The notes below the pieces were generated by a model. The model made no database searches. It had not been told where the DNA came from and worked only from the letters and a program-made list of their open reading frames with translations. This document shows, piece by piece, positions 8,053 to 23,664 of a stretch of 64,000 nucleotides of DNA. Every line of letters begins with the position of its first letter. Position 1 is the first letter of the stretch. This DNA comes from Sharpea azabuensis DSM 18934 (GTDB lineage Bacteria > Bacillota_I > Bacilli_A > Erysipelotrichales > Coprobacillaceae): NCBI RefSeq assembly GCF_000702165.1, contig NZ_JNKU01000005.1, forward strand, positions 1 to 64,000, in the 5' to 3' direction. The translations under genes and the position numbers were made by a program.

Positions 8053-8151
8053 ATTCCTCCCATTTTCTCAAAAAATACATAATCCCATAGAAATATTATA
8101 TCAAGATGAAACAATTGATTGTAGAGACATATTTGTCTCATAAAGAACATA

Positions 8152-8988
8152 TTAATGCTTTAAATGATAGATATAGCCACCATAAACTGGTTCATGTTTT
8201 GCCACTTCTATATGTATATGAGGTAAATAAGATTGAATGGCATCCATATAGTATTGGCTATGTGATAAGCCTCCAGTAATAACGACAGGCAGGTCATCTG
8301 TTTGCGCACTAGTAATCAGTTTTGCCGCATTGCTTGCAGAAGTTTTAATAATTTCTAAACATTCTTCAGGATGATCCAAGGCTATTCTTGCTGCCTTCGC
8401 AATTAGTGTTCGCTTAACAATACCATGATCAACAACTTTTGTGATAAGTTCATTTGGCGTATTGAGCTCATATAGTTCAGTGACTGAATCAATGATGATA
8501 CCTTTTCTCTTTCGTCCATCTGCTTCCAAGGCAAATGTTTTAAGTACATTTTGTCCAAGTTCATATCCAGAACCTTCATCACCCAAGACAAATCCCCAAC
8601 CACCAATTTGCGTTGTTTTTGCGCTCTCTTTGCGAAAGGCAACACTGCCCGTACCAAGAATCACAGTAATACCATCGTGTCCTAACAATGTACTATACAT
8701 GGCCATTTCTGTATCTGGAATAATGTGGTAGGGATGATTGCCGCATGCCTTAGCTACAAGCCAATCAATTTTATCTTTTAAGCTTTGGGAACGGCCATAG
8801 CCTGCAAAACCAAAGACAATAGGTGCATTGTCATCTAGAATACATGCCTGAATATTATTAATAATGGTCTCATCATCATTTTGCATGGGATGACAGCTGC
8901 CCACAACAACTTCGTTAAGTACATCTCCATTTTCATTATATAGAACAGCTTTTGACTTTGTTCCTCCTACATCAACACTAATGACCAT
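8152..8988 (-). CDS. BadF/BadG-type amino-sugar kinase (GlcNAc/MurNAc kinase)
   Basis: Sugar kinase of the ASKHA fold, 278 residues. It opens with the phosphate-1 loop SVDVGGTKSKAVL (about 4-16) and has the phosphate-2 motif VILGTGSVAF (about 108-117), IGGWGFVLGDEGSGYELG and the adenosine motif VVITGGLSH. This is the N-acetylglucosamine kinase branch, which in Clostridium includes MurK, active on GlcNAc and MurNAc. It follows mupG with two bases between them. MupG releases GlcNAc from MurNAc-6P-GlcNAc, so phosphorylation of that GlcNAc is the natural job here. Confidence 0.85.
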   Translation of the reverse strand: MVISVDVGGTKSKAVLYNENGDVLNEVVVGSCHPMQNDDETIINNIQACILDDNAPIVFGFAGYGRSQSLKDKIDWLVAKACGNHPYHIIPDTEMAMYSTLLGHDGITVILGTGSVAFRKESAKTTQIGGWGFVLGDEGSGYELGQNVLKTFALEADGRKRKGIIIDSVTELYELNTPNELITKVVDHGIVKRTLIAKAARIALDHPEECLEIIKTSASNAAKLITSAQTDDLPVVITGGLSHSQYYMDAIQSYLPHIHIEVAKHEPVYGGYIYHLKH

Positions 8989-8990
8989 AA

Positions 8991-10082
8991 CTACATCTTT
9001 GTGAATTCAAACTTCTGCCATGGCTTGATGACATCGATTAAGAATTCTTCTTCCTTTCTCATGTGACCAACAACATTTGTCTTACCACTATTCATCATAT
9101 CTTTTTTCGCAATCTGTACTTCACCTGCATAATGTCCATACTCAGAACTTTCAACAAGAATATCACCTCGATGAATATATTCTGGAGCATTGATAATTGG
9201 GAAATTCTCACCACGATATTTTACACGTGTCAATGTTGAACGAATAATATTTTCATTGATATCTCCCCTGTTCATTTGAAGTTCTCCAAAAAGAACCTTT
9301 TCAAAGATTTCAGGTAGTTCATTTATTACAGAAATAGAGAGATTAAGTACTTGTAAGTTAACTTTATTTAATGCTTGTAGTTCTTTTTTTGAAGGATAAC
9401 AATTGGCTATAACAATATCATCAATATTGCCCATCGATACATAATGCTTAACCTGGATATCTAATGGAAGATGACGATGCATTTCAAGCGTACAAAGTCC
9501 TTCCTTTACTGGCCATGGTCCAAAACTATCTTTTTCCTGTGAACCAACAAATGCTGCTGTTTTAAGGCCATATTGTTTAAATCTCTTTGTGGTGTTATAG
9601 AAGTGTTCGTATGTTAATCCTGTGTAGGGATGAGGATAGAAATTATGACAACCTTGTAAATGATAGATATCTGGCTGATAATCCATAATTGTATCAAGTG
9701 TATGAGTGTTATTTGACATATTGATTTCAATAATGAGATGTTGAGGATTATAAGTCATTAGTGATTCTTCCATACCTGTAAAGCCCTGATCAAGGCGTAT
9801 GCCATCTGCCTCTATTTCTTTAAAGAAAGATAAATCTTGATATGAAATACCTAGCTTACTAAAGACTGCAGGTGAAATATCTAAGATAACTTCATAGCCT
9901 AGTTGATGGGCATAATGATTCATTTCATAGAATTCTTTCTTAATAGCTTCTGGTTCTTTTGTTGCTGATAGCAAACAAGAAAAGATTCTTGATGCACCTA
10001 TCTTCTGTGCATCTTTTAGATAGTTTTTAATATGTTCTAGATTGTCTTTTTCGGGATAAATAGAAAGACCTAATCTTCTCAT
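8991..10082 (-). CDS. mupG: MupG-family 6-phospho-N-acetylmuramidase (DUF871)
   Basis: A 363-residue cytoplasmic glycosidase of the DUF871/MupG family. In Staphylococcus aureus MupG splits MurNAc-6-phosphate-GlcNAc after PTS uptake. The family start RRLGLSIYPEK, the TIM-barrel segments FSCLLSATKEP, EVILDISPAVF and ADGIRLDQGF, and the motif HNFYPHPYTGL (about 177-187) are all present, as is the C-terminal domain with NINENIIRST-like and RGDILVESSEYGHYAGEVQ sequences. It lies between the PTS EIIC and kinase genes, in the order expected for uptake, cleavage and phosphorylation. The start has a GAAAGGAAG site. Confidence 0.9.
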   Translation of the reverse strand: MRRLGLSIYPEKDNLEHIKNYLKDAQKIGASRIFSCLLSATKEPEAIKKEFYEMNHYAHQLGYEVILDISPAVFSKLGISYQDLSFFKEIEADGIRLDQGFTGMEESLMTYNPQHLIIEINMSNNTHTLDTIMDYQPDIYHLQGCHNFYPHPYTGLTYEHFYNTTKRFKQYGLKTAAFVGSQEKDSFGPWPVKEGLCTLEMHRHLPLDIQVKHYVSMGNIDDIVIANCYPSKKELQALNKVNLQVLNLSISVINELPEIFEKVLFGELQMNRGDINENIIRSTLTRVKYRGENFPIINAPEYIHRGDILVESSEYGHYAGEVQIAKKDMMNSGKTNVVGHMRKEEEFLIDVIKPWQKFEFTKM

Positions 10083-10113
10083 AATACTTACTTCCTTTCA
10101 TTAATAGACTTAA

Positions 10114-10134
10114 AGCGGATCACAGTGATCCGCT
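10114..10134 (-). repeat. Intercistronic hairpin between EIIC and mupG
   Basis: A perfect 9-bp stem AGCGGATCA / TGATCCGCT with a three-base loop lies between the EIIC stop and the mupG ribosome site. Downstream on the minus strand there are only three U residues, so it is more likely an mRNA-stabilising or weak attenuating hairpin than a full terminator. Confidence 0.6.
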
Positions 10135-10145
10135 ATGAGATAATA

Positions 10146-11435
10146 TTAAGCATTTGCTTCGTTCTTTTCTTCTTCAACAAGTAATTCATTATCCCACATT
10201 TTAAAGAAAGGATAATAGATGACTATGCTCAATGCAATTAAAAGAATACTCAGAATAATTGCACGCCAGTCAGCACCTGTGGCAAGATAAGCACCAATAG
10301 GTCCTGGTAATGTCCATGGGGCATTGACGGATACACGATTAACAAGTCCAGCTGCAGTTGCTCCATAAGCAATAACTGCATTAAGGATTGGGCTGATAAT
10401 AAATGGAATCATAAGCGTTGGATTAAGAACAATTGGTGTACCAAAGATAATTGGTTCATTGATATTGAAGATACATGGTAATAATGCCGTCTTACCAAGA
10501 CTCTTAGCATAGCTTGAACGAGATCTAAAAGCCATCAAGATTGCTAGACCAATTGTACAGCCTGCTCCACCAATCCAGATAAACCACTGATAGAATGGTT
10601 CAGGAGCAATATTAGGTAGAGCCTGTCCGTTTGACATAGCTGTTGTATTAGCTTCAAGAAGGATTAACCATACTGGACGTGCAAGAGAACCAACGATTGA
10701 AGCACCGTGAATACCAAAGCACCAGAAGAAAGTTGTTAAGAAGACAATAAGAATAACGCTTCCTAATGAATCACTTGCTGAAACAAGAGGGGTAATAAGT
10801 TTTCCAATAAAACCATGCCAATCAAAACCAAGCCAGAAAGTAATGCCACCAATGACTAAGATCACAACTGCTGCTGGAGTTAAGTTTTCAAAACTTTTAG
10901 CAACTGCTGGTGGTACAGCATCAGGCATCTTGATTTTTAAGTTCTTGGCATCCATGAAATGATATATTTCCACGGCAATAATAGCAGTAATAATACCAAC
11001 GAACATACCTGCTGAACCAAGTTTTGCCATTGGTAATGCCCAGCCCTGTAACTCTGCACCTTTAGCTGTAATATTGACAGGAACAATTGTAAGCAGGTAG
11101 GCTGTTTCAGCAAGAATAGAACCTGATAAGCCATCCAAGCCATAAGATTCAGCTAGTGAATGACCAATTCCAAATACTGCATACAATGTCATGATGAACA
11201 TTGTCATACGATAAGGTAATACAATATTCGCCGCATTAGCAGTTAAGAATTTTGATATTCCCCAAGATGCAGGAAGTGGTGGATTAGCAACAATCAAAAA
11301 GAATGAGCCAACGATAATTAAAGGTAATGTTGCAATAATACCATCACGTACAGCTAAGAGATGGCGCTCACTGCCAAGCTTCGTCATTGGTCCTGAAAGC
11401 TTTGCATTGAGTAAGTTTGCAAATTTCTCAAACAT
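10146..11435 (-). CDS. PTS EIIC, lactose/cellobiose family, of the MurNAc locus
   Basis: Membrane permease of a sugar phosphotransferase system, about ten helices, with the family stretches VRDGIIATLPLIIVGSFFLI near the N-terminus and NINEPIIFGTPIVLNP (about residue 320), the substrate-binding loop of CelB-type EIIC. The start at 11435 (MFEKF) follows GGGAGGAAATATT; an ATG 15 bases upstream overlaps that site. No EIIA or EIIB is encoded in this unit, so it must use partners from elsewhere, plausibly those at 20500-21154. Its place directly before mupG suggests import of MurNAc-GlcNAc. Known MurNAc importers (MurP) are glucose-family EIIBC proteins, so this would be a different transporter type. 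Confidence 0.85.
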   Translation of the reverse strand: MFEKFANLLNAKLSGPMTKLGSERHLLAVRDGIIATLPLIIVGSFFLIVANPPLPASWGISKFLTANAANIVLPYRMTMFIMTLYAVFGIGHSLAESYGLDGLSGSILAETAYLLTIVPVNITAKGAELQGWALPMAKLGSAGMFVGIITAIIAVEIYHFMDAKNLKIKMPDAVPPAVAKSFENLTPAAVVILVIGGITFWLGFDWHGFIGKLITPLVSASDSLGSVILIVFLTTFFWCFGIHGASIVGSLARPVWLILLEANTTAMSNGQALPNIAPEPFYQWFIWIGGAGCTIGLAILMAFRSRSSYAKSLGKTALLPCIFNINEPIIFGTPIVLNPTLMIPFIISPILNAVIAYGATAAGLVNRVSVNAPWTLPGPIGAYLATGADWRAIILSILLIALSIVIYYPFFKMWDNELLVEEEKNEANA

Positions 11436-11487
11436 AATATTTCCTCCCATTTATGTTTATGAGCTTTGTAAGCCCTTTGATAATCTT

Positions 11488-11547
11488 ATTATAACAGTAT
11501 GTAATATTATTTCAATACATAATTTATATTCTTGTAATGTTATTTCA
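11488..11547 (-). promoter_or_regulatory. Promoter with two probable MurR operators upstream of EIIC
   Basis: Minus strand TTGAAA (11515-11510), 16 bases, TATAAT (11493-11488). Two 15-bp sites, TGTAATATTATTTCA (11500-11514) and TGTAATGTTATTTCA (11533-11547), lie 33 bases apart (about three helical turns). The first covers the -35 element. Both match the perfect palindrome TGAAATGCAATTTCA in the murR promoter at 11 or more of 15 positions, so one repressor probably controls both units. Confidence 0.7.
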
Positions 11548-11549
11548 TA

Positions 11550-11849
11550 TTAGAGTAAAAAAATAAGAACACTAAAAGACAATCCAAAAATAATACCCAT
11601 ATTCCTATAAAAGCCTAAACAAATTCCACGCTTAGTATCAATAAAATAACGGGCAATCCCAGTTAATAACGCTAGCGAAATACTTAATGTAAGCGTAAGG
11701 GCTATTTTATTTGCAGGAAACAAATAAAGATCAAGTAACGTGAAAAGTAATAAGCCTCCCTGAATAAAGATAGCACTCTTATAGAAAAAACGAGGTATCG
11801 CATATTGTGTTTTTGTCGTTATAGTAAAAGGATTTTGTTTCTTTGTCAT
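11550..11849 (-). CDS. Small membrane protein of the MurNAc operon (99 aa)
   Basis: No family recognised. Three hydrophobic helices are visible (about 27-46, 48-68 and 80-98) after a basic, polar N-terminus; the loop before the last helix reads FIDTKRGICLGFYRN. The ATG overlaps the anmK stop (ATGA) and is preceded by AAAGGAGG, so it is made together with AnmK. Its constant partners would show whether it helps transport, for example as an EIIC accessory or an anhydro-MurNAc carrier component. At 99 residues it is too small to be a transporter alone unless it forms oligomers. Confidence 0.65.
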   Translation of the reverse strand: MTKKQNPFTITTKTQYAIPRFFYKSAIFIQGGLLLFTLLDLYLFPANKIALTLTLSISLALLTGIARYFIDTKRGICLGFYRNMGIIFGLSFSVLIFLL

Positions 11850-12982
11850 TTAAAGACCTCCTTTGTTGAAGGGGTAATTGTACCTAAGATCATTTTTCTT
11901 TTTGCCCCTGTTGCGCTGATCATATTGGCATAATGGTGATGTAATGTTTCGTTACCAAGAATCACAAAAGCAATGGCTTCTTTCGCATTAGAAGAATAGC
12001 CTATCTCTTCTTGTGTCAAGACACGTACATGAGGAAGCTGTGATTGGAGACGTTCAAGTAATGTCCTATTAAAAGCACCACCACCTGCAACAATAAGTTC
12101 ATCACAGCCATTTGTGAATGTCTTGATGTTATAGGCAATACTATCTGCTGTGAAATAAGTTAATGTTGTGATGAAATCATCAGCTGGTATTTTATAGCGT
12201 TCAAATAAAACATGGGCTAATTGTTTACCAAAGAGTTCTCTGCCTGTACTTTTTGGTGGAACCATATGAATATACTCCATGTGCATAAGTTCCTGATATA
12301 GAGCTTCACAAAGCCTTCCTCTTTTTGCATGCTTGCCATCACAATCATACTCTTGTCCATAGAAGTATCGCATTGCTTCATCAATGAGCATATTACCCGG
12401 TCCTGTATCAAAAGCGTATACATCTTCCTCTAAGCATCCCTTTTTAAGATAAGTAATATTAGAAATCCCCCCAATATTTAAAAGTATGCGATCAAGATGA
12501 TCATCCCGATACAACAAATAATCCGCATAAGGCACGAGTGGCGCACCCTGGCCTTCTGCTGCCATATCCATCGCCCGAAAGTTCGCAATCACCTGAAAAC
12601 CTGTCTTATAAGCAATAAGAGCTGGTTCACCTATTTGTAATGTACTTTTATGGTAATTCTTAGTATCTTCAGGAATATGATAAATAGTCTGTCCATGTGA
12701 GGCGATATAATCAATAGATGTAATATTTCTTTCATCCATAAAGTTCTTTGTGCATTGACCAAACCAAGAACCTAGTTCAAAATTCAATGAACAAATATCC
12801 TGGACATGTCCACCATCAGTTTGACAACAATATTGAATTTTTTCTTTTAGATGATGAGGCATTTTCACTTCACGATAATCAAGTAATTTCACTTTGGTAT
12901 CCGTATAGTTACCCTGAATATCACAATAAGCAATATCGAGACCATCCAAGCTTGTTCCCGACATCAGTCCTATTGCTTTCAT
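11846..12982 (-). CDS. anmK: Anhydro-N-acetylmuramic acid kinase
   Basis: AnmK phosphorylates 1,6-anhydro-MurNAc while opening its anhydro ring, giving MurNAc-6-phosphate. The 378-residue protein has the family start AIGLMSGTSLDGLD (about 3-16), IASHGQTIYH, the FRAMDMAAEGQGAPLVPYAD stretch and FDTGPGN, all typical. It overlaps murQ by ATGA, so kinase and etherase are coupled: the product of one is the substrate of the other. In a Gram-positive, anhydro sugars would come from lytic transglycosylases or from other bacteria in the gut. Confidence 0.95.
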   Translation of the reverse strand: MKAIGLMSGTSLDGLDIAYCDIQGNYTDTKVKLLDYREVKMPHHLKEKIQYCCQTDGGHVQDICSLNFELGSWFGQCTKNFMDERNITSIDYIASHGQTIYHIPEDTKNYHKSTLQIGEPALIAYKTGFQVIANFRAMDMAAEGQGAPLVPYADYLLYRDDHLDRILLNIGGISNITYLKKGCLEEDVYAFDTGPGNMLIDEAMRYFYGQEYDCDGKHAKRGRLCEALYQELMHMEYIHMVPPKSTGRELFGKQLAHVLFERYKIPADDFITTLTYFTADSIAYNIKTFTNGCDELIVAGGGAFNRTLLERLQSQLPHVRVLTQEEIGYSSNAKEAIAFVILGNETLHHHYANMISATGAKRKMILGTITPSTKEVFK

Positions 12983-13884
12983 AACTTGTTTGCCTCATTA
13001 ATAGCTTCATGCACATTGCCCCCATTATGTGAAAGCAGATTCTTAGCATCATCATAGCTAATCTTACCAACACCCATAATCACCGCAATCTTGACATCAT
13101 TATGACTCTCCTCAAGTAATCGCTTTGCTTGTTGGTGATTGCAGTGTACACATTTTTCAACTATACCAATAGCTCGTTGTTCAAGTTTTTCATTTGTTGG
13201 CTGTACATCAACCATGAGATTCTCATAAACCTTTCCGTAACGAATCATGCAACCTGTTGAAATCATATTACAGATCATCTTTTCAGCACTACCAGCCTTC
13301 ATACGTGTAGATCCGGTAATGACTTCAGGACCAGTAATAACTTCAATAGGTGTAGAAGCATATTGACTAATGACAGCATTTGTAACACAGGCTACTGAAG
13401 CACTATAAGCACCTACTTCATTCGCGTAGCTCAGCCCACCGGCAACATAAGGCGTTCTTCCGCTTGCTGCTAAGCCGACAACTGTATCATTTTCGTTAAG
13501 ATCCAGTGCTTTTAAATCATCTTTGCCTTGATTTTCATTATCTTCAGCCCCCTCCTGGGATCTAAACATGGCCTGATAACCACCAGCAATAAGGCCTACA
13601 ACAAGATCATTTGATACACCATACGTAGGTGGGCATTCAGAAGCATCAAGAATACCAATACGACCACTCGTACCAGCACCCATATAAATAAGACGTCCAC
13701 CCTTTTTCATACGAGCACTACATTCATCAATAACTTCAGCAATTTTATCTAGTTGCAAAGCAATTGCATCAGCTACTTTATGATCTTCAGCATTAATCTT
13801 TTCAACAATCTCCAACGTACTCACCCGATCAATATCCATTGTATGGATATTGCGTTGTTCCGTTTCAATACGCTCTAAATCCAT
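12979..13884 (-). CDS. murQ: N-acetylmuramic acid 6-phosphate etherase
   Basis: MurQ removes the lactyl group of MurNAc-6P to give GlcNAc-6P and D-lactate. Family start TEQRN, the SIS-domain loop MGAGTSGRIGILDASECPPTYG (roughly residues 60-85), AASGRTPYVAGGL and TGSTRMKAGSAEK are all present. The start at 13884 follows GGGAGG with good spacing and overlaps the murR stop as TGATG; an upstream in-frame ATG would sit inside the ribosome site. The GlcNAc-6P made here should enter glycolysis through NagA and NagB, not encoded in this window. Confidence 0.95.
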   Translation of the reverse strand: MDLERIETEQRNIHTMDIDRVSTLEIVEKINAEDHKVADAIALQLDKIAEVIDECSARMKKGGRLIYMGAGTSGRIGILDASECPPTYGVSNDLVVGLIAGGYQAMFRSQEGAEDNENQGKDDLKALDLNENDTVVGLAASGRTPYVAGGLSYANEVGAYSASVACVTNAVISQYASTPIEVITGPEVITGSTRMKAGSAEKMICNMISTGCMIRYGKVYENLMVDVQPTNEKLEQRAIGIVEKCVHCNHQQAKRLLEESHNDVKIAVIMGVGKISYDDAKNLLSHNGGNVHEAINEANKL

Positions 13885-14720
13885 CAAGATAACCTCCCTG
13901 TCCATTTTCTCGTTTTCATAAGCGTTTCTTTATGCTCATCGAGATGTCGAGAGAAAAGTGTGAGATATACGATATCTGTAATCATTAAGGAAGCATCCCT
14001 GCTCGCAATAGCACCAGCACGTAAAGAATCTTCCTGTACTGGCAAGAAGAAATTAATATCACTCAAAGCTCTTAGAGATGTATTGCCCAAATGAGAAATA
14101 CCAATAACTGTTGCACCTTGTTCTTTCGCAACCTTAACACTTTCTAGCACTGAAGCTGTTTCACCTGAATAACTAATCGCAATAACAGCATCACCCTCTC
14201 TTATTCCTGCAAGAGAAGCAAGCTGAATATGAGCATCAGTATTAAATATAGCCCGATAGCCAATACGATTAAGCTTGTGATAAAGGTCCATACATACATT
14301 ACCACTACCACCTATCCCAATAAGATAGATACAGCTTGCCTTTTCAAGTATATCTGCACTTTGACTAACAACTTCTTCATCAATGAGTTCTTCAGTTCTT
14401 TGTAAGTTGCCTAAGCGATGGGAATATGTAGCTTTAATAAGGTCTGAAGGCTTCTCATCTTGTTCCAGTTCTTTTGTAAGATCAGGAATCTCTTCTTTTT
14501 TAGTAACTAATAAATCAACTTTTAATTGAGACAATCCACTATAGCCTAACGTTCTTGCGAAACGAATGATTGTTGGAGCACTTGTATGACAAACTTCTGC
14601 CATTTGTTTAGCTGAATAACTTGCAAGCTGTTCACCATGATCTAAGAAATAATCTGCAATTTTCTTCTCGCTTTCTGTTAAAGCACTATAAGAATCACGA
14701 ATTCTATCATTTACACTCAT
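13884..14720 (-). CDS. murR: MurR/RpiR-family regulator of the MurNAc locus
   Basis: Transcription factor with an N-terminal RpiR-type helix-turn-helix (about 1-75, recognition region HTSAPTIIRFARTLGYSGLSQLK) and a C-terminal SIS sugar-phosphate-binding domain (about 120-250, with IGIGGSGNV and AISYSGETASV). In Escherichia coli MurR is a repressor released by MurNAc-6P. It is the first gene of murR-murQ-anmK. I place the start at 14720 because AGGAGG is nine bases away; a GTG six bases earlier is too close. Its own promoter carries the best copy of the proposed operator. Confidence 0.9.
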   Translation of the reverse strand: MSVNDRIRDSYSALTESEKKIADYFLDHGEQLASYSAKQMAEVCHTSAPTIIRFARTLGYSGLSQLKVDLLVTKKEEIPDLTKELEQDEKPSDLIKATYSHRLGNLQRTEELIDEEVVSQSADILEKASCIYLIGIGGSGNVCMDLYHKLNRIGYRAIFNTDAHIQLASLAGIREGDAVIAISYSGETASVLESVKVAKEQGATVIGISHLGNTSLRALSDINFFLPVQEDSLRAGAIASRDASLMITDIVYLTLFSRHLDEHKETLMKTRKWTGRLS

Positions 14721-14743
14721 CTTCACTTTCCTCCTTCTATTTT

Positions 14744-14777
14744 ATTATATTTCACGTTTTTGTGAAATGCAATTTCA
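14744..14777 (-). promoter_or_regulatory. murR promoter with palindromic operator
   Basis: Minus strand TTGCAT (14772-14767), 17 bases, TATAAT (14749-14744). A perfect palindrome TGAAAT-GCA-ATTTCA (14763-14777) covers the -35 element, and an overlapping inverted repeat TTTCAC-N6-GTGAAA (14750-14767) fills the spacer. Binding of MurR here would block RNA polymerase. Confidence 0.75.
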
Positions 14778-15402: not shown

Positions 15403-16290
15403 TTAATCTAATGGTTGTCTATAGAAATGCCCAACAAAGCGTTCAGTAGATATTACATTGATGATAGCTTTAGGATCAACCCTCTTGATTAAACGAATAG
15501 CATCTTCTAGTTCATAGAACGAAATAACCGTATGAATTAATGATAGATTTTTATGTTCATATCCACCAATACCAGCAACCTCTGATAACCCATGACGATA
15601 ATGTTTGATGTATGCTTTGCATATTTCTTTTGGATGATATGTAGTTATCTCTAATGTTACTAGTTTATACCTCTTATAAAATGAATCTATTGTTTTTGTG
15701 GAAATAAACTGAAATAGAATTGAATATCCAGCATATTTCCATCCAAACATATACCCAAAAATTAGAAGTAAAACTGAATTAAAGACAAAGACATATTCAA
15801 ATATTGACTTCCCAATTTTATTAGAAACCCATAAGGCAATAAAATCAGTACCCGCTGTTGAAGCATTTCCTCTTAGTGCTAGCGATATCGCAATACCATA
15901 TAGAAAGCCACCAAAACATACATTAAGCAGTAGATCATCAAATAACAATGTATAATGAAAATTAAGAAATATACTCAATAATATGACTTGTAGAATTGAG
16001 AAAAAGACAAACTTCTTACCAATACTTCTAAAACATAAAACGCCTAAAGGTATATTGAGTATTAATACAAGTAATGATACCGGGATTGTAAAACCAAATA
16101 GAGAAGAAATCTTATTAATAAGAATTGCCAAACCCGTAAAACCACTTGAAAGTAGCTTAGATGGAGTAATGAAAACGTTAATACAAAAGGACTGTAGAAG
16201 AGCTGACAAAAAGACACAAAATAATGTTTTAAGATATTTATTGTGTATTATGAATAAGCTTGCTGACTTGGTCACAATTGACAACCTCAT
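15403..16290 (-). CDS. YitT-family membrane protein
   Basis: Family with a six-helix YitT (DUF161) membrane domain and a C-terminal soluble DUF2179 domain (here about 215-295, ending in AIINVISTERFVGHFYRQPLD). The loops SSGFTGLAIL and GNASTAGTDFIAL are family hallmarks. Function is not established. The gene overlaps the end of cutC. The ATG at 16290 has no good ribosome site, whereas GTG at 16275 has GAGG nine bases upstream and may be the true start. It is the last gene of the PTS/asparaginase unit and has a paralogue at 54201-55094. Confidence 0.8.
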   Translation of the reverse strand: MRLSIVTKSASLFIIHNKYLKTLFCVFLSALLQSFCINVFITPSKLLSSGFTGLAILINKISSLFGFTIPVSLLVLILNIPLGVLCFRSIGKKFVFFSILQVILLSIFLNFHYTLLFDDLLLNVCFGGFLYGIAISLALRGNASTAGTDFIALWVSNKIGKSIFEYVFVFNSVLLLIFGYMFGWKYAGYSILFQFISTKTIDSFYKRYKLVTLEITTYHPKEICKAYIKHYRHGLSEVAGIGGYEHKNLSLIHTVISFYELEDAIRLIKRVDPKAIINVISTERFVGHFYRQPLD

Positions 16291-16972
16291 ACTTCATTTC
16301 ATTGTCATGATAATAGCCATAAGACACCTTGCCATTTGATGTTGTTGTATCGATTTTATAGGATTTGCATGATGAATGAAGCTGTTTGACATGTGTATAG
16401 TTCTTAAAACCTAATGCATTATCCGCATTAATACCACAACCAGCTAATATCTCTATTTGACTGCCAAAATGTTCTTCAAGTCTCTTAATAGTATTCTTTC
16501 CAGCAATCGCATTAGCTTCACCACCACTTGTCAGTATGCGATCCACATGTAGAGTGATAAGTTCAGCAATAGCTTTTTTCAAATCTGCTGTGCAATCAAA
16601 CGCTCTATGAAATACTGCTTCTTTGTGATATGAATGTATAATCTTTACAAATTCACTTGTCTTTTCCTTGTCAACAAGAAAGTCGTTTGTAAGAAAGCCA
16701 AAAGCAATACCATCAGCCCCATTTTCTAAAAAGTCTTTAGCCTCTGCTTTCATCTGAATAAATTCATTCTCATCATAACAGAACCCTGCTCCTCTAGGTC
16801 TAACCATACAAATAATTTTAAGATCTGTTTTTGCCTTTAGAAGCTTCAATGTACTTACTGTAGGTGAAAGGCCACCAAGATATAGAGCACTATTAAGCTC
16901 AATTCTTTTTGCACCGCCATAATATGCATTCATGCCATCTTCAAAACTTCCACAACAAACTTCAATCATCAT
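16238..16972 (-). CDS. cutC: CutC-family TIM-barrel protein
   Basis: A 244-residue CutC homologue: start MIEVCCGSFEDG, then GGAKRIELNSAL, ICMVRPRGAGFCY (about 54-66), GADGIAFGFL, FHRAFD and RILTSGGEANA. CutC was named for copper tolerance in E. coli, but its reaction is unknown and the fold is that of an enzyme. Here it overlaps the dipeptidase gene by ATGA, inside an operon for PTS sugar and amino-sugar-asparagine use. The context suggests an enzymatic step on a sugar or amino sugar rather than copper handling. That is inference. Confidence 0.9.
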   Translation of the reverse strand: MMIEVCCGSFEDGMNAYYGGAKRIELNSALYLGGLSPTVSTLKLLKAKTDLKIICMVRPRGAGFCYDENEFIQMKAEAKDFLENGADGIAFGFLTNDFLVDKEKTSEFVKIIHSYHKEAVFHRAFDCTADLKKAIAELITLHVDRILTSGGEANAIAGKNTIKRLEEHFGSQIEILAGCGINADNALGFKNYTHVKQLHSSCKSYKIDTTTSNGKVSYGYYHDNEMKYEVVNCDQVSKLIHNTQ

Positions 16973-18066
16973 AAATGTTCCTCCAGACCTAACCGATATA
17001 ATGTCAATGCATAGATTTTCGTAATCATAATGAGATCATCAATTTTCATCCATTCATTAGGATTGTGTCCAATCCCTTTTTGTCCAGGGAATGATGGACC
17101 AAAAGGTACAATATGAGGCATTAACTTTGCATAGGTTCCACCTGTTGTTGTCACTGGCGTACCGTCCAATCCCGTTACTGCTTCATATGATTCTTGCATA
17201 ATGGAAATCATTGGTGCATTGCGATTAAAATATACAGGATCATAGTTTCCTACAACATCAACTTCAAAACCTTTATTTTTCAATTTCTCTACAAGCTCAT
17301 TAGAAGTAATCCCATAAGGATAGCTTATCGCAAACTGAAATGTTTTGTCATCTATGATCTTGTAGTTTCTTGTTTCTAGCTTTCCAAATTCATCATTCTT
17401 ATAGTCAATCTCTAACTTAACACCACTATTATCACTATTAAGTATATAAGTATTCAAGAACTGATGAAGTGCTGGCGTATTTGCATATTTTACATTGACA
17501 CCAAGTCGTCCTCTTTCAGCATAGACAACCGGGAACTTACAATCAGGTGTAAAACCAGCTAAAGGTGGTTGCTTTTTTGAAAGATAGTATTTTAAGTCAT
17601 GAAAACCTGTCTCTTCATTACAGCCAAAAATAATTCTGATTTCTCTGTTGGGCTTATATCCAAGTTGCTTGAGTGCAAATAACGCATATAGACATGAAAG
17701 AATAGGTCCTTTATTATCAAGAATTCCTCTTGAATAAATAACGCCATCTTCTTCATAAGCTGAAAATGGATCATGCTTCCATCCTTCGCCAACAGGAACA
17801 ACATCAAGATGCCCTATTGCCGCAATATAACCATCTTTATTTTTAGGACCAAAAGAAGCATATCCAATATGGTTATCAATATTCACAGTCTCAAAACCAA
17901 GCTCTTCACATAGATTTAGTGTTTCTACAAGTGCTTTTCTTGTATTCTCTCCATAAGGTGCATCTTCAGTGGCTGTATCTTGAACAGATGGTATTCTCAC
18001 AATTCTTTTAATACCGTTGATAAGTTCTGGTACAATCTTGTCAACTTGATTCATTATTTTATCCAT
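16969..18066 (-). CDS. M20-family (Sapep/PepV-like) dipeptidase, short form
   Basis: Metallopeptidase of the Sapep/PepV group of family M20. Conserved metal and catalytic residues are visible: GHLDVVP (His near 84), GILDNKGP (Asp near 118), NEETG (Glu pair near 150), FTPDCKFPVVYAERG (Asp near 175) and GHNPNEWM near the C-terminus. At 365 residues it is about 100 shorter than PepV or Sapep (around 460-470); the missing part falls in the lid domain, which holds the substrate in PepV. Coupled to cutC by ATGA and adjacent to the glycosylasparaginase gene, it may trim peptides from Asn-linked GlcNAc. Confidence 0.85.
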   Translation of the reverse strand: MDKIMNQVDKIVPELINGIKRIVRIPSVQDTATEDAPYGENTRKALVETLNLCEELGFETVNIDNHIGYASFGPKNKDGYIAAIGHLDVVPVGEGWKHDPFSAYEEDGVIYSRGILDNKGPILSCLYALFALKQLGYKPNREIRIIFGCNEETGFHDLKYYLSKKQPPLAGFTPDCKFPVVYAERGRLGVNVKYANTPALHQFLNTYILNSDNSGVKLEIDYKNDEFGKLETRNYKIIDDKTFQFAISYPYGITSNELVEKLKNKGFEVDVVGNYDPVYFNRNAPMISIMQESYEAVTGLDGTPVTTTGGTYAKLMPHIVPFGPSFPGQKGIGHNPNEWMKIDDLIMITKIYALTLYRLGLEEHL

Positions 18067-19020
18067 TTACTTTTTCTCCAAAGGTGCTGTTCTACTTCTC
18101 ATATACTCATCCATCCATTGTTGACTTGCCACCTTAAAAACACAATGTCCATTCTCATGTTCAACAAGATAAACTGTTGGCTTTAATGAATCTGTTGCAA
18201 CAACGAAAGAAAAGCCTTCAATATTGGTTGCACAGCCCCATTCACCTTTATTATTCAAAGCAATAAGACTCATATCACCAGCTTTTCCTCTCTTTTTAAT
18301 AAGTAATGCATTGATATGAGATACTGCCTTTTCACACGCCTCTTGTGGATGCATACCTTCTTTCATCATTCTAACGATTTCATAAGACACACAGCCCTTC
18401 ATCACATCTTCGCCTAGCCCCGTAGCAGAGGCACCACCAATTTCAGAATCAACATAAAAACCAGAACCAGACACAGGAGAATCACCAACACGACCAGCAC
18501 GTTTCATAAATAAACCACTTGTCGATGTTGCCGCTGTCATCTTTTCCTGCTGATCAAGACATATCATACCAACCGTATCATGTCCTGAATAGGGCTTGAT
18601 TTCCATTTCAATTTCTTTTGAGCGATTGTGATAATGTATTTTTGCACGTTCTGTCAACATATTCTTTCTTTCAAAGCCATTCTTATGCGCATATTTTTCT
18701 GCACCTTCTCCAACTAAAAAATTATTGACAGGCTCATGGGATAACTTTCGTGCTATAAGCACTGGATTCGCAAAGTCTTTGATTGCGCCAACAGCTCCAA
18801 TAGATAATGTATTGCCATTCATATAAGCTGCATCAAGTTCAACTTCCATCTCCTCATTAGGCAGTCCTCCATATCCTACAGACTTGTAAAACGGAAAATC
18901 TTCTACTTCTTTAACTGCCCGTACTACTGCATCACCAGCATCACCTTTTTCCTTTAATATTTTGCTAGCTGAAGTAACACCTTCAAACGCCATTCTCCAT
19001 GTTGCGATAATGCCCCACAT
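18067..19020 (-). CDS. Glycosylasparaginase (N4-(beta-N-acetylglucosaminyl)-L-asparaginase)
   Basis: Ntn-hydrolase that cleaves the amide between GlcNAc and asparagine. The proenzyme cuts itself before Thr149 in the motif GHDTVGM; after cleavage this Thr is the nucleophile. The substrate pocket RVGDSPVSGSGFYVD (about 170-185) and GGASATGLGED follow. The start at 19020 (MWGIIATW) has AGGAGG eight bases upstream. No signal peptide is seen, so the enzyme acts inside the cell on imported substrate. It lies after a complete lactose-family PTS and before a dipeptidase gene, suggesting use of GlcNAc-Asn or glycopeptides. Confidence 0.9.
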   Translation of the reverse strand: MWGIIATWRMAFEGVTSASKILKEKGDAGDAVVRAVKEVEDFPFYKSVGYGGLPNEEMEVELDAAYMNGNTLSIGAVGAIKDFANPVLIARKLSHEPVNNFLVGEGAEKYAHKNGFERKNMLTERAKIHYHNRSKEIEMEIKPYSGHDTVGMICLDQQEKMTAATSTSGLFMKRAGRVGDSPVSGSGFYVDSEIGGASATGLGEDVMKGCVSYEIVRMMKEGMHPQEACEKAVSHINALLIKKRGKAGDMSLIALNNKGEWGCATNIEGFSFVVATDSLKPTVYLVEHENGHCVFKVASQQWMDEYMRSRTAPLEKK

Positions 19021-19041
19021 ATTCATTTCCTCCTTCAATAG

Positions 19042-19073
19042 AAAAGTGCGCTGATAAGTTCAAACGCACTTTT
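19042..19073 (-). terminator. Intercistronic hairpin/attenuator between EIIC and glycosylasparaginase
   Basis: Minus-strand AAAAGTGCG (19073-19065) pairs perfectly with CGCACTTTT (19050-19042) over a 14-base loop, then continues UUUUC. It probably ends part of the PTS transcripts, so that transporter genes are expressed more than the enzymes downstream. Confidence 0.65.
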
Positions 19074-19094
19074 AATGATTATTTACAATGATTA

Positions 19095-20462
19095 TTAAAG
19101 ATCATCAAAAGAAATGTTATCTAAATCAATTGAATCTTCTTCTTTTTGATTGCTTGCTTCAATTTCTTCTTTCGTATACTGCTTATCAATAACCTTGATA
19201 AATGGAAGATAAATAAATACACCCATAATAATAAGAAGCAACTGTAATACAGCACCAGCCCAGTTTGTCGCAAGGAAACCAGAAATGATTGGTGGTGTTG
19301 TCCAAGGAATAGCAATACCAGAGCATACTGGAACAATCTTAGCAGCCATAGCTAGATAAGATATGATGATATTAAGAGTTGGAACTAAGATAAATGGAAT
19401 AATGAGCGTTGGGTTAAGGACAATTGGAATACCAAATACAATTGGTTCATTGATACCAAAAATACCTGGGATTAGTGCTAGTTTTCCTAATTCAGTAACA
19501 CGTTTAGACTTACAGAAAGCTAACATTGCAATAATTAATGAAATTGTTGATCCACAGCCACCAAATGTCGCAAAGAGATCCTGGAATTGCTGATTGATAA
19601 TATGCGCACTACCAATGCCTTTAGTGAAATATGCAATGTTTTCAGCAGATAATGTCTGCAAAATAGGATTGAATACAGCACCAACAACTGAACCACCATT
19701 GATTCCAAAGAACCAGAAGATATGCAAGAAGATATACGCTGTGACCATAGCTCCCAATGTATCACCTAAGTTAAGAAGTGGCGTCTGTAAGAATGTAAAG
19801 ATAATAGTAAATGCATCTGTTCCTAAGAAACCAAGTAACAAATTAATTAAGAAGAAGAATGTCATAACAAGTGTTGCTGGAATCAAGGCAGAGAAAGATT
19901 GCACAACTGTTGGTGGAACACCCTTAGGCATCTTAATTGTCCAACCTTTTTTCTCAACATAGGAATAGATATGAACTGATAGGAATGCAACAATAATTCC
20001 TAAGAAAATACCTTTTGCACCAACCCATCCAGTAGGAATACCAGATAACTTTACTGAAACCTGCTTTTTACCGATTGTTGCAGTCCCTTCAACAACATAT
20101 GGCATAAGCAAGAACCATGACATTAATGCTGTTGCTGAAGCGAAGAGTTTATCCGTCTTCATTTCTCTTGCAAAAGAATAAGCAATCCCCATAACCGCAA
20201 AGATAGCCATGATAGAGAATGTTGCAGCAGATGGTTTTTCCAACAATGCGCCAAGCGTTAAGCCTGTTGTTTTATTGACAACAATACTACCAATCCAATT
20301 TGTCCATGCAGGAATTGGGAAGTTCGCAATCAATAAGAAAATAGAACCTGCAATAAGTAAAGGCGTAGACAATAAGAAACCATCACGTACCGAAACTAAA
20401 TACTTATTTCTCCCAATAGCTTCAGCTAATGGCATCAAATACTTTTCAATTTTTTCAGTCAT
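19095..20462 (-). CDS. PTS EIIC, lactose/cellobiose family
   Basis: Membrane permease of 455 residues with about ten helices. Family stretches are SVRDGFLLSTPLLIAGSIFLLI near the start and GINEPIVFGIPIVLNPTLIIPF near residue 335. It is encoded after EIIB and EIIA of the same family, giving a full enzyme II. The acidic C-terminal tail (about 30 residues) is soluble. Lactose-family PTS proteins mostly carry beta-glucosides, chitobiose or other disaccharides; here the linked glycosylasparaginase points to a GlcNAc-containing conjugate. Confidence 0.9.
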   Translation of the reverse strand: MTEKIEKYLMPLAEAIGRNKYLVSVRDGFLLSTPLLIAGSIFLLIANFPIPAWTNWIGSIVVNKTTGLTLGALLEKPSAATFSIMAIFAVMGIAYSFAREMKTDKLFASATALMSWFLLMPYVVEGTATIGKKQVSVKLSGIPTGWVGAKGIFLGIIVAFLSVHIYSYVEKKGWTIKMPKGVPPTVVQSFSALIPATLVMTFFFLINLLLGFLGTDAFTIIFTFLQTPLLNLGDTLGAMVTAYIFLHIFWFFGINGGSVVGAVFNPILQTLSAENIAYFTKGIGSAHIINQQFQDLFATFGGCGSTISLIIAMLAFCKSKRVTELGKLALIPGIFGINEPIVFGIPIVLNPTLIIPFILVPTLNIIISYLAMAAKIVPVCSGIAIPWTTPPIISGFLATNWAGAVLQLLLIIMGVFIYLPFIKVIDKQYTKEEIEASNQKEEDSIDLDNISFDDL

Positions 20463-20499
20463 TCAACTCATCTCCCTTATATATATTTCGACATTAATA

Positions 20500-20826
20500 T
20501 TATTTACTGTTTTTCTTAATCAATAATATTGCTTTCTTGAGAACACGTTCACCGTTCATCATGCCATAGTCATCTTGATCAATTACAGCAAAGGGAATAC
20601 CCTCGTTGCCATATTTTTTTACAGTTTCATCATACATATACTGTACTTGGGGGCCAAGAAGTATGCAGTCTGGTTTGTCACTTTCAATAATTCTTCCCAT
20701 TTTTTCAATCGGATGGGCTGCCACTTTGATAGGAAGCTTATGTTCATTGGCAACATCTTGCATAGCTGACGCTAACATACTTGTTGACATACCTGCACTA
20801 CAAAACAGATAAACCTTTTTCATCAT
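20500..20826 (-). CDS. PTS EIIB, lactose/cellobiose family
   Basis: Cytoplasmic phosphotransfer protein of 108 residues. The phosphorylated cysteine is Cys9 in YLFCSAGMSTS, the P-loop of CelB-type EIIB. It receives phosphate from EIIA (His76) and passes it to the sugar at EIIC. The gene overlaps the end of the EIIA gene by 29 bases and has its own AGGAGG. Confidence 0.95.
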   Translation of the reverse strand: MMKKVYLFCSAGMSTSMLASAMQDVANEHKLPIKVAAHPIEKMGRIIESDKPDCILLGPQVQYMYDETVKKYGNEGIPFAVIDQDDYGMMNGERVLKKAILLIKKNSK

Positions 20827-21154
20827 TCAAATCCTCCTTTTTTAATTCATTCATTTGTTTGTACATTTTTATCATTTGGAGTGCCATAATTTTAATTGTT
20901 TCGGCTGATAAAAGCTGATCCTCAGCATGCATAAGTAAAATTGTAGGTATCGTCCTATTTCCTTTAGCTTCCTCAGTAATAAGCTTGGCATGTACTTCAT
21001 GTCCTTTATTAAACTCATTATCACCATCAACAATGAAACGCTCTGCTTTTTCAAAATCACCTTCTTCAGCTTTTTTCACAGCTTCAAGATATTTCGACTT
21101 CGCAACTCCAACAAACGAAATAATCCTAAAGCTTATTAAATCCAAATTCTCCAT
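20798..21154 (-). CDS. PTS EIIA, lactose/cellobiose family
   Basis: Phosphocarrier of 118 residues, all-helical LacA/CelC type, forming trimers in the family. The start is at 21154 (MENLDLISF) after GGAGGAG, not at the earlier in-frame ATG. The active histidine is His76 in LLMHAEDQL. Its own weak promoter and an inverted repeat lie upstream, after the RDD gene. Confidence 0.95.
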   Translation of the reverse strand: MENLDLISFRIISFVGVAKSKYLEAVKKAEEGDFEKAERFIVDGDNEFNKGHEVHAKLITEEAKGNRTIPTILLMHAEDQLLSAETIKIMALQMIKMYKQMNELKKEDLNDEKGLSVL

Positions 21155-21175
21155 ATGTCTCCTCCAACTACATTC

Positions 21176-21239
21176 AGTATATCTCTTAAATTTCACTACA
21201 TTTCACAAATACTTTTCCTAATAAATTCATACTTAGGAA
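21176..21239 (-). promoter_or_regulatory. Candidate activator site and promoter for the PTS genes
   Basis: An inverted repeat TTCCTAA-N11-TTAGGAA (21215-21239) lies about 55 bases upstream of the probable start of transcription set by TATACT (21181-21176). No good -35 element is visible, which fits an activator-dependent promoter. A related repeat occurs in the leader of the PRD regulator gene (23724-23740). Confidence 0.5.
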
Positions 21240-21240
21240 A

Positions 21241-21774
21241 TTACACTCTTACAACGATTGTATGGGCGATACGGTCATGTAAAGACTGTGCATTTTTACT
21301 CAATACAACAAGTAATGCACTTACAATTGTAATAACCCAGAAAATAGTAACAACAGCTCTAACAACCTGAATATGTGTTAGTAAAGTAAATAACTGTTGT
21401 AAAATAGTAGAAATATTGTACATTCTCTCTTCAAAAAGCATGATGACTAGCACTTCTCTAATAAGCATTGTCTTAAGATTTATATCATCATTATTATTTC
21501 CAACAATCTTTAAATGCAGAATATGTTTTCCTAGTGTTTGTCCTTTCCATATCCATGTAGGCACAACAACAAAATAGAATAGTCCACAGATCATACTCAA
21601 AATGCCAGCAATAACACCATAAGATTCAGGAAATTTCAATAAATTCAAATTATTCGCTGTGCCAAATAGCTTTTGTGAAAAAAGACCTATAGGAAATGAT
21701 ACAACCAAGGCTCCTACATACCAGTCAACTAAATATGCGATAAACCTTCTCATCAACACCTTTCTATCATTCAT
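21241..21774 (-). CDS. RDD-family membrane protein
   Basis: A 177-residue membrane protein with about four helices and the family signature RRFIAYLVDW near the N-terminus, GQTLGKHILHLKIV in the middle and SLHDRIAHTIVV at the end. RDD proteins have varied or unknown roles; some act in ion exchange. The ATG abuts the regulator's stop codon (TAAATG), so it is translated together with the PRD regulator and may sit in the same control circuit. Confidence 0.85.
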   Translation of the reverse strand: MNDRKVLMRRFIAYLVDWYVGALVVSFPIGLFSQKLFGTANNLNLLKFPESYGVIAGILSMICGLFYFVVVPTWIWKGQTLGKHILHLKIVGNNNDDINLKTMLIREVLVIMLFEERMYNISTILQQLFTLLTHIQVVRAVVTIFWVITIVSALLVVLSKNAQSLHDRIAHTIVVRV

Positions 21775-23664
21775 TTAAATATCCTCCTTTATATTTTTCA
21801 TGAGCTCGTCATAGGATTTTGTTGAGAACAGTTTTGAAATCATTTCTGGATTTGTCACAATATGGGTCAGCCACTCAAAGAATATGCGAATAAGTTCACT
21901 ATCATCATTATTAATGCCCATAAGTATGACAAGTCCTACCTCAAATTGTCCCCATTGAATAGGATGCTTCAATGTCATCAAGGAAATATATTGCTTTGTC
22001 GTTTTTACAGTTAATGAATGTGGAACCGCAAAACCTTGGACAAAAGATGTTGAAGAAATGTTTTCTCTTTTAAGAACATCTTGTTCATATCCCTCTGGTG
22101 CGATACCTTTTTTCACTAGCTCATTACATAAATACGCAATACATTCTTCCTTTGTTTGAAAATCATAGCCAAAATAACAATAATCTTTTCTGATTACTCT
22201 CTTAAGAAGGGCAATAAATTCTTTTTGATTCTTTTGTCTCTCAAGAGTATCCAGTGTTCTCATAATCATACTTTCATCTTCATAGTCAAAAAACAGCTTG
22301 ATTTCAACAATAGGGGCCTTTAGCTTTGTATTGATGGGAATGGTAGAAATAATAAGATCAGGCGATAATAGATTAATCTTCACTTCATCAACGAGCTTAA
22401 AATTATCAACAATATCAATACGATCATCAAAATGCTTTTTAATTTTCTCTAAGCATGCATTTGCAAGAACGACATTATGGGGAATGATTGTAATAACCCG
22501 ATATTTATCATTGGTTATCTTTCTTTCATATGCCGCTCCAAGATGGAGTGCTATAAGTGCAATTTCATTCTCATCAACCGATTTATTTATCCTCTCAGCA
22601 ATGATTTCAGTTGCATTTACTGCCATATCAAATACTAAAGGGTATTTTTTCTTCACTTCTTTAAGATAGAGATTACTTACTTTTGTACACGTATTTACAC
22701 GAGATATAAGAGAGAGCACATGGGAAGTCAAACCACTCACAAGCTCATTGTCCCCCGTAAAATCAATATCATAGATATTATTTATGTGATTAATGATTTC
22801 ATTTACAATTTCCTGCACATTAATATTTTCATTACTCTTTATGCAATCATAGCTCTTCCCTCTTAGCAGATAAGAAAACCAAATAACTTCATCTTCGACA
22901 TAAGGAATTCTTAAATTTGCAGATACATTCTTGAAGAAATGCTTGCTGACATTATATTCAAGATCCATATCGCTGCTAATAGGTTTGACATTGGATATAA
23001 AAGCCGAATCCCTGATCCGTTCAATAGCTATTCCTGCATGTAGCAAAGTCATCACATATGTATCTTCTCTAAGATGATAATCAAACATATGACAAACCCT
23101 ATCGAAGATTCTCGAAACTTCAAGAATATCAAAATCGTCCCAAAGCTTGCCCAATGCCGTCAGGTTCATGAAATTACCTTTAATTTCTTGATCAAGAAGA
23201 ATCTTGTAAAGAATCCTTTTCTCATACTCATCTCCAGCTAACGAAATACTATGATCAGATTTCACAAGCTTTAGCGTCTCAAAGCTTTCTAACTTATTTC
23301 TAATCTTCTTAAGATCATTATCAATCGATGATTCACTGACATACATCTTACTTTCTAGTTCAATTAAGGAAATACTCTTTGTTAAAAGCATTTGTTTGGC
23401 AATCCAGACACATCTATTCTCCGGTGTATATGATTCAATTTGACTTTCATCAACCTTATTTAAAAGCAAAACATCAGAATTAATCTCATAACCGTATCTT
23501 TTGTTGGAAAGGATAAGAGTATTATCACTCATCTCATTGATTTTACTAATATCTGAACGAATAGTACGATCACTTACATTCAACATTCTAGATAAATCAG
23601 AGCCTGTTACCCAAGACCCATTGTCCTGTAGTATTTCTACTATATTACGCTGTCTCTCATTCAT
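21775..23664 (-). CDS. PRD-containing transcription activator (MtlR/LicR type)
   Basis: PTS-controlled regulator of 629 residues: N-terminal helix-turn-helix domain (about 1-65, with LSRMLNVSDRTIRSDISKI) and a second HTH-like region (about 90-150), two PRD domains (roughly 175-285 and 295-390, conserved histidines in LLHAGIAIERI and IALHLGAAYERK), an EIIB-like segment (about 400-480) and a C-terminal EIIA-like domain with the phospho-histidine His549 in GFAVPHSL. Such proteins bind DNA and activate PTS genes when inducing sugar drains phosphate. It heads the operon of RDD, EIIA, EIIB, EIIC and the asparaginase. Confidence 0.9.
   Translation of the reverse strand: MNERQRNIVEILQDNGSWVTGSDLSRMLNVSDRTIRSDISKINEMSDNTLILSNKRYGYEINSDVLLLNKVDESQIESYTPENRCVWIAKQMLLTKSISLIELESKMYVSESSIDNDLKKIRNKLESFETLKLVKSDHSISLAGDEYEKRILYKILLDQEIKGNFMNLTALGKLWDDFDILEVSRIFDRVCHMFDYHLREDTYVMTLLHAGIAIERIRDSAFISNVKPISSDMDLEYNVSKHFFKNVSANLRIPYVEDEVIWFSYLLRGKSYDCIKSNENINVQEIVNEIINHINNIYDIDFTGDNELVSGLTSHVLSLISRVNTCTKVSNLYLKEVKKKYPLVFDMAVNATEIIAERINKSVDENEIALIALHLGAAYERKITNDKYRVITIIPHNVVLANACLEKIKKHFDDRIDIVDNFKLVDEVKINLLSPDLIISTIPINTKLKAPIVEIKLFFDYEDESMIMRTLDTLERQKNQKEFIALLKRVIRKDYCYFGYDFQTKEECIAYLCNELVKKGIAPEGYEQDVLKRENISSTSFVQGFAVPHSLTVKTTKQYISLMTLKHPIQWGQFEVGLVILMGINNDDSELIRIFFEWLTHIVTNPEMISKLFSTKSYDELMKNIKEDI

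Follow-up and report, generated by a model that had tools for sequence, protein, structure and literature searches.

The stretch of the Sharpea azabuensis DSM 18934 genome analysed here (contig NZ_JNKU01000005.1, positions 1 to 64,000; hereafter, the window) carries a putative locus for the salvage of peptidoglycan sugars at positions 8152-14777. It includes murR, murQ, anmK, a gene for an enzyme IIC (EIIC) of the lactose/cellobiose family of the phosphotransferase system (PTS), a gene of glycoside hydrolase (GH) family 170 and a BadF-type kinase gene. The favoured reading, given a rough probability of 0.58 from sequence comparisons, is a MurR-controlled salvage of the disaccharides GlcNAc-MurNAc and GlcNAc-anhMurNAc (GlcNAc, N-acetylglucosamine; MurNAc, N-acetylmuramic acid; anhMurNAc, 1,6-anhydro-MurNAc). 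The EIIC, with EIIA and EIIB acting in trans, would import peptide-free GlcNAc-beta-1,4-MurNAc and GlcNAc-beta-1,4-anhMurNAc, with phosphorylation of C6 of the non-reducing GlcNAc. The GH170 enzyme would hydrolyse the phosphorylated disaccharide to GlcNAc-6-phosphate (GlcNAc-6P) and MurNAc or anhMurNAc. AnmK would convert anhMurNAc, and the BadF/MurK-like kinase MurNAc, into MurNAc-6P, from which MurQ would form GlcNAc-6P and lactate.

An earlier note, made from the sequence alone, had already described the locus, and the open reading frames (ORFs) and family matches confirm it. The note's proposal that an EIIC of the lactose/cellobiose family was recruited in place of MurP to import a muropeptide sugar is borne out by an in-place exchange, MurR-box-like pairs and recurrence over several classes of bacteria. 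The substrate and the glycosidase named in the note, MurNAc-GlcNAc and MupG, are both probably wrong.

GlcNAc-(anh)MurNAc is favoured because of the co-occurrence of AnmK and the kinase, the lack of GH3 enzymes, the reducing-end position of anhMurNAc and the presence of both systems side by side in some bacteria. A PTS of the lactose/cellobiose family phosphorylates the non-reducing sugar, which is MurNAc in MurNAc-GlcNAc and GlcNAc in GlcNAc-(anh)MurNAc. Since C1 of anhMurNAc is tied in the 1,6-anhydro bond, this sugar can stand only at the reducing end of a disaccharide, and cleavage of MurNAc-GlcNAc therefore never gives a substrate of AnmK. In the first sample, AnmK adjoined 17 of the 21 GH170 genes in loci with EIIC and murQ versus 0/7 in loci with murP and murQ. 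Loci L186 and L223 have murP, and after they had been recounted to the murP side the figures became 17/20 and 0/9, with a BadF kinase in 18/20 and 0/9 loci, respectively. Thus AnmK, sensible only for anhMurNAc at the reducing end, goes with the EIIC type rather than the MurP type, and the "full path" of the earlier note from MurNAc-GlcNAc and anhMurNAc merges two different substrates.

In the window genome, AnmK is present and no GH3 protein was found, so NagZ is absent (AmpG and non-GH3 glucosaminidases were not searched for). GH3 enzymes are also completely missing from 11 of the 17 AnmK-positive EIIC-type genomes, so these bacteria must release anhMurNAc by other means. In Streptococcus sp. 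263_SSPC (L248) and Clostridium MAG.206 (L280), the EIIC/GH170 set lies beside a murQ-murP-mupG set, which argues for different substrates of the two systems.

The phylogenetic analysis of GH170 proteins (71 rows) placed the MurP-linked MupG proteins in one clade (14 rows, support 100/98), separate from that of the window protein (clade C; 51 rows, support 100/100). As NCBIfam gave no match for the GH170 proteins tested, the clade assignment rests on the tree. The window protein shares 68-69% identity with its nearest relatives, 42% with a Borreliella cp26 protein and 23-24% with the MurP-linked MupG of Lacticaseibacillus paracasei and Collinsella. The likely active-site residues D68, R96, D98, N121, H146, N147, E200, R203, R272 and E321 occur in both clades, and the discriminating positions are Leu38 and Asn227 in the window protein versus mostly His and Asp in the MupG clade. 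Clade C also contains loci with EIIA, EIIB, EIIC, DUF3284 and GntR genes, the same arrangement as in the chb operon of L. paracasei; there, growth on diacetylchitobiose depends on the GH170 gene chbE (PMC12791066). The Borreliella cp26 protein, encoded in an EIIC/EIIA/EIIB cluster (L184:2476-5866) and annotated as an alpha3-beta1 integrin-binding protein, is by its family predicted to be a cytosolic 6-phospho-glycosidase.

The arrangement, described here for a gut-type bacterium, occurs in dozens of others over several phyla. PF05913 was searched in order, class and phylum samples, the gene neighbourhoods of the matches were compared, and 80 loci were retrieved by scanning named genomes. The recurrence counts are based on the 68 named loci in which this GH170 accompanies an EIIC. 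Among them, murQ was found in 50, a BadF kinase in 57, anmK in 38, GH1 enzymes in 20, and their own EIIA and EIIB in 50 and 51, respectively; the window locus and its closest relative, L163, have neither EIIA nor EIIB in the locus. The 50 loci with murQ belong to Clostridia (20), Erysipelotrichia (11), Bacilli (7), Coriobacteriia (6), Fusobacteriia (2) and Tissierellia (1), and three are unplaced. In the EIIC tree, the murQ-linked proteins form a group apart from the chb-like, Borreliella and MupG-adjacent EIICs, and the separating branch is well supported. In uncultured class members (L198, L200 and relatives), GH170, BadF kinase, AnmK and MurQ genes adjoin NamZ and NagZ-like genes, and a nearby PTS gene was not found; in such uncultured relatives, AnmK instead accompanies NagZ-like and NamZ genes, in one case with an ABC permease.

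A box pattern, TGAAATNNNATTWCA, was derived from three loci, namely those of the window, L163 and another genome of the same genus (G031). It has four exact matches in the window versus 0.08 expected, all within the locus: one before murR, two before the EIIC gene (Table 1) and one inside murQ at 13258. At L163, the pair before EIIC recurs, together with a single box before murR; in the same-genus genome, murR is likewise preceded by one box, and two boxes spaced by 33 bp lie ahead of murQ-murP-mupG. Over all loci, the pattern was found in 37 of the 94 with murQ versus 4 of the 112 without it, and 44 of the 50 box sites of murQ loci are intergenic. These are candidate binding sites of MurR. 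Recurrence elsewhere and the box sites rule out a mere chance clustering of the genes.

In G031, vsr (98%) and murR (71%) keep their order and are followed by murQ (55%), murP and mupG. The comparison indicates that the stretch between two common edges has been exchanged in place against the murP-mupG type, with the regulator and operators kept. This follows from the common block at one edge, the common 56-bp segment at the other (Table 1) and the box-bearing promoter before EIIC, which resembles that before murQ of the same-genus genome. The MurQ of the window is 65% identical to that of the EIIC-type locus L163 versus 55% to that of G031. A MurP ortholog was not found elsewhere in the window genome, where the top match to the same-genus MurP reached 31%.

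Several points weigh against a GlcNAc-(anh)MurNAc pathway, including the scope of the glucosaminidase search given above. AnmK was found in 17/19 EIIC-type versus 0/7 MurP-type genomes (Fisher p 5e-5), and is hence missing from two of the former; this p-value and that at the locus level (also 5e-5, computed with the 17/21 count before the recount) overstate independence, as the compared loci share ancestry, and serve as a guide only. The active-site loop of the window kinase, Gly-Gly-Trp, fits MurNAc kinases and GlcNAc kinases alike (PMC10465942), and the enzyme could act on MurNAc as well as on GlcNAc. ChbE was placed in clade C by operon organisation, not by its sequence. Finally, a small group of the MupG clade (L118, L134, L205 and L281) also adjoins lactose-type EIICs, murQ and anmK, so AnmK tracks the GH170 clade imperfectly. 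This arrangement is what the earlier note predicts, and the window locus is of the other type. At L118:4423-9958, L205:6391-9974 and L281:3268-9013, the MupG-clade GH170, murQ and anmK are joined by a different lactose-type EIIC and by a further, divergent EIIC-like protein of 378-419 aa.

Three alternatives were weighed. According to the earlier note, the EIIC imports MurNAc-GlcNAc like MurP of Staphylococcus aureus, the GH170 enzyme is MupG, a 6-phospho-N-acetylmuramidase, the BadF kinase acts on the freed GlcNAc, and AnmK serves separately imported anhMurNAc. The common GH family, the linkage to murQ and murR, the exchange with murP-mupG at the same place with the same boxes, and the lactose-type EIICs beside MupG-clade proteins at L118, L205 and L281 agree with it. 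However, it seems unlikely in view of the position of the window GH170 outside the MurP-linked clade, with its Leu38 and Asn227, the absence of AnmK and the kinase from 9/9 MurP-type loci, and the coexistence of both systems at one locus in some species.

A broad uptake of beta-1,4 amino-sugar disaccharides (GlcNAc-GlcNAc, GlcNAc-MurNAc, GlcNAc-anhMurNAc and possibly MurNAc-GlcNAc) would agree with the range of clade C, which covers chb-like and murQ-linked loci, and with the GH1 enzymes of some loci, which suggest more than one substrate; but the EIIC belongs to a dedicated clade and the MurR linkage points to MurNAc-6P as the inducer, which makes such breadth quite improbable. Slimmer still are the chances that EIIC, GH170 and the kinase form a system for diacetylchitobiose, or the N-glycan core GlcNAc2, that merely adjoins murR-murQ-anmK: chb-organised loci and the Borreliella cluster do fall in the same GH170 group and GlcNAc is a possible substrate of the kinase, whereas the murQ linkage over several classes, the MurR-box-like pair at the EIIC promoter, the well-supported branch separating chb EIICs, the lack of a DUF3284 or GntR gene in the locus, and another EIIC of the genome beside a ChbG-like deacetylase and GH1 enzymes all speak against it.

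The locus is encoded wholly on the minus strand and runs from 14726 to 8152 in the order murR-murQ-anmK-99-aa ORF-EIIC-GH170-BadF kinase. The genes listed by the earlier note are all present, but the 99-aa ORF was omitted there, though its relatives recur in such loci; its product gave no Pfam match. The overlaps of murR with murQ (22 bases), murQ with anmK (4) and anmK with the 99-aa ORF (4) indicate that these genes are probably one unit. A 99-bp gap containing a good promoter-like site separates them from EIIC-GH170-kinase.

Table 1. Features of the salvage locus and of related sites in the window
Feature	Position	Strand	Remarks
MurR-box-like palindrome TGAAATTGCATTTCA	14763..14777	-	upstream of murR
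murR, RpiR-family regulator	13884..14726	-	HTH_6 and SIS; ortholog of same-genus MurR, 71% identity
murQ, MurNAc-6P etherase	12979..13905	-	TIGR00274, 383 bits (cut-off 302)
anmK, anhydro-MurNAc kinase	11846..12982	-	NF007142, 492 bits (cut-off 435); single copy in genome
99-aa ORF, hydrophobic, probable membrane protein, no known family	11550..11849	-	relatives in 48/68 EIIC+GH170 loci
MurR-box-like site, distal	11533..11547	-	upstream of EIIC
MurR-box-like site, proximal	11500..11514	-	upstream of EIIC; 33 bp from distal site; overlaps promoter-like site
Promoter-like site	11488..11515	-	before EIIC; 11/12 matches, extended -10
PTS EIIC, lactose/cellobiose family	10146..11450	-	TIGR00410 lacE subfamily, 398 bits (cut-off 236); without EIIB domain; murQ-linked EIIC clade
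Inverted repeat AGCGGATCACTGTGATCCGCT	10114..10134	.	10-bp arms, no T-run; between EIIC and GH170
GH170 6-phospho-glycosidase, clade C (ChbE side)	8991..10082	-	PF19200 and PF05913; predicted to hydrolyse phospho-GlcNAc-(anh)MurNAc
BadF-type sugar kinase, predicted MurNAc/GlcNAc kinase (MurK-like)	8152..8988	-	PF01869
Block common to same-genus genome	13912..15363	-	80% DNA identity; vsr 98%, murR 71% (protein); one cassette edge
56-bp segment, 87.5%	8088..8143	-	past kinase gene; also just downstream of same-genus mupG; other cassette edge
Lactose-family EIIA, neighbouring operon	20798..21196	-	possible in-trans partner of EIIC
Lactose-family EIIB, neighbouring operon	20500..20826	-	possible in-trans partner of EIIC

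The inverted repeat between EIIC and GH170 is possibly an element for mRNA processing or stability. The window genome (2.41 Mb, completeness 100) encodes 21 PTS_EIIC domains, two GH170 proteins and one AnmK; the description of the EIIC as the only transporter holds for the locus but not for the genome. The operon lacks lactose-family EIIA and EIIB genes, and the nearest pair, at 20500-21196, belongs to the neighbouring operon. Profiles of EIIB and EIIA from the Mur clusters ranked several candidates elsewhere in the genome with no clear winner. The neighbouring operon (15403-23664) encodes YitT-like and CutC-like proteins, an M20 peptidase, an isoaspartyl peptidase/glycosylasparaginase-like protein, lactose-family EIIC, EIIB and EIIA, and a PRD-type regulator. 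Similar sets in L130, L132 and L142, which include a clade-C GH170, suggest a PTS for a compound of the N-glycan GlcNAc-Asn type. The second GH170 gene of the window genome (L051:5027-6118) has no PTS or mur gene nearby, and a same-genus copy occurs in L152.

In the literature searched, peptidoglycan disaccharides are described as entering by the PTS through MurP, for MurNAc-GlcNAc; no description of a PTS for GlcNAc-anhMurNAc or of murQ-anmK-PTS operons was found there. If the proposed pathway is true, a second PTS family serves the other disaccharide register, AnmK gains a source of substrate in bacteria without NagZ, and a bacterium can switch muropeptide diets with its regulator and operators retained. 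The chances seem about even for the wider claim of a widespread PTS family, new to that literature, which would import GlcNAc-MurNAc and GlcNAc-anhMurNAc, the disaccharides of the lysozyme and lytic-transglycosylase types, with GH170 replacing NagZ and AnmK and MurK feeding MurQ. It would give anhydro-disaccharides a route independent of AmpG and NagZ, and could change places with the MurP-MupG cassette while a single regulator serves both. Many gut and oral bacteria have EIIC, GH170 and kinase genes now annotated only as cellobiose PTS, MupG-like and BadF family, and under the proposed pathway these would receive testable functions.

Among known systems, the MurP-MupG-MurQ-MurR pathway of S. 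aureus salvages MurNAc-GlcNAc (PMC6262408). The window locus resembles it in the predicted PTS import of a peptidoglycan disaccharide, the GH170 6-phospho-glycosidase and the linked MurQ and MurR, and the same-genus genome has a locus of that type, with the same box motif, at the corresponding position. It differs in having a lactose-family EIIC without EIIB, MurP being a glucose-family EIIBC, a GH170 of the other clade, the additional AnmK, BadF kinase and 99-aa protein, and the opposite disaccharide as predicted substrate. With the L. paracasei chb operon (ChbR, ChbABC, ChbD and ChbE; PMC12791066), it shares a lactose/cellobiose-family PTS and a GH170 for which release of non-reducing-end GlcNAc-6P is predicted; unlike that operon, it has murQ, anmK, the kinase and MurR, no DUF3284 (ChbD) or GntR (ChbR) gene, and an EIIC of a different clade. 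The window kinase has the BadF-type fold of the MurNAc/GlcNAc kinase structure 8zo3 (MurK-type) and its non-bulky Gly-Gly-Trp loop beside the lactyl-group site, but the sequence similarity is low (phmmer E 6e-17) and MurNAc specificity is only predicted. As in the AmpG-NagZ-AnmK-MurQ recycling of anhydromuropeptides in Escherichia coli (PMC5061867), AnmK and MurQ would take anhMurNAc to GlcNAc-6P; unlike there, import is predicted to proceed by a PTS, and in a genome without GH3/NagZ the role of NagZ would fall to GH170 acting on the phosphorylated disaccharide.

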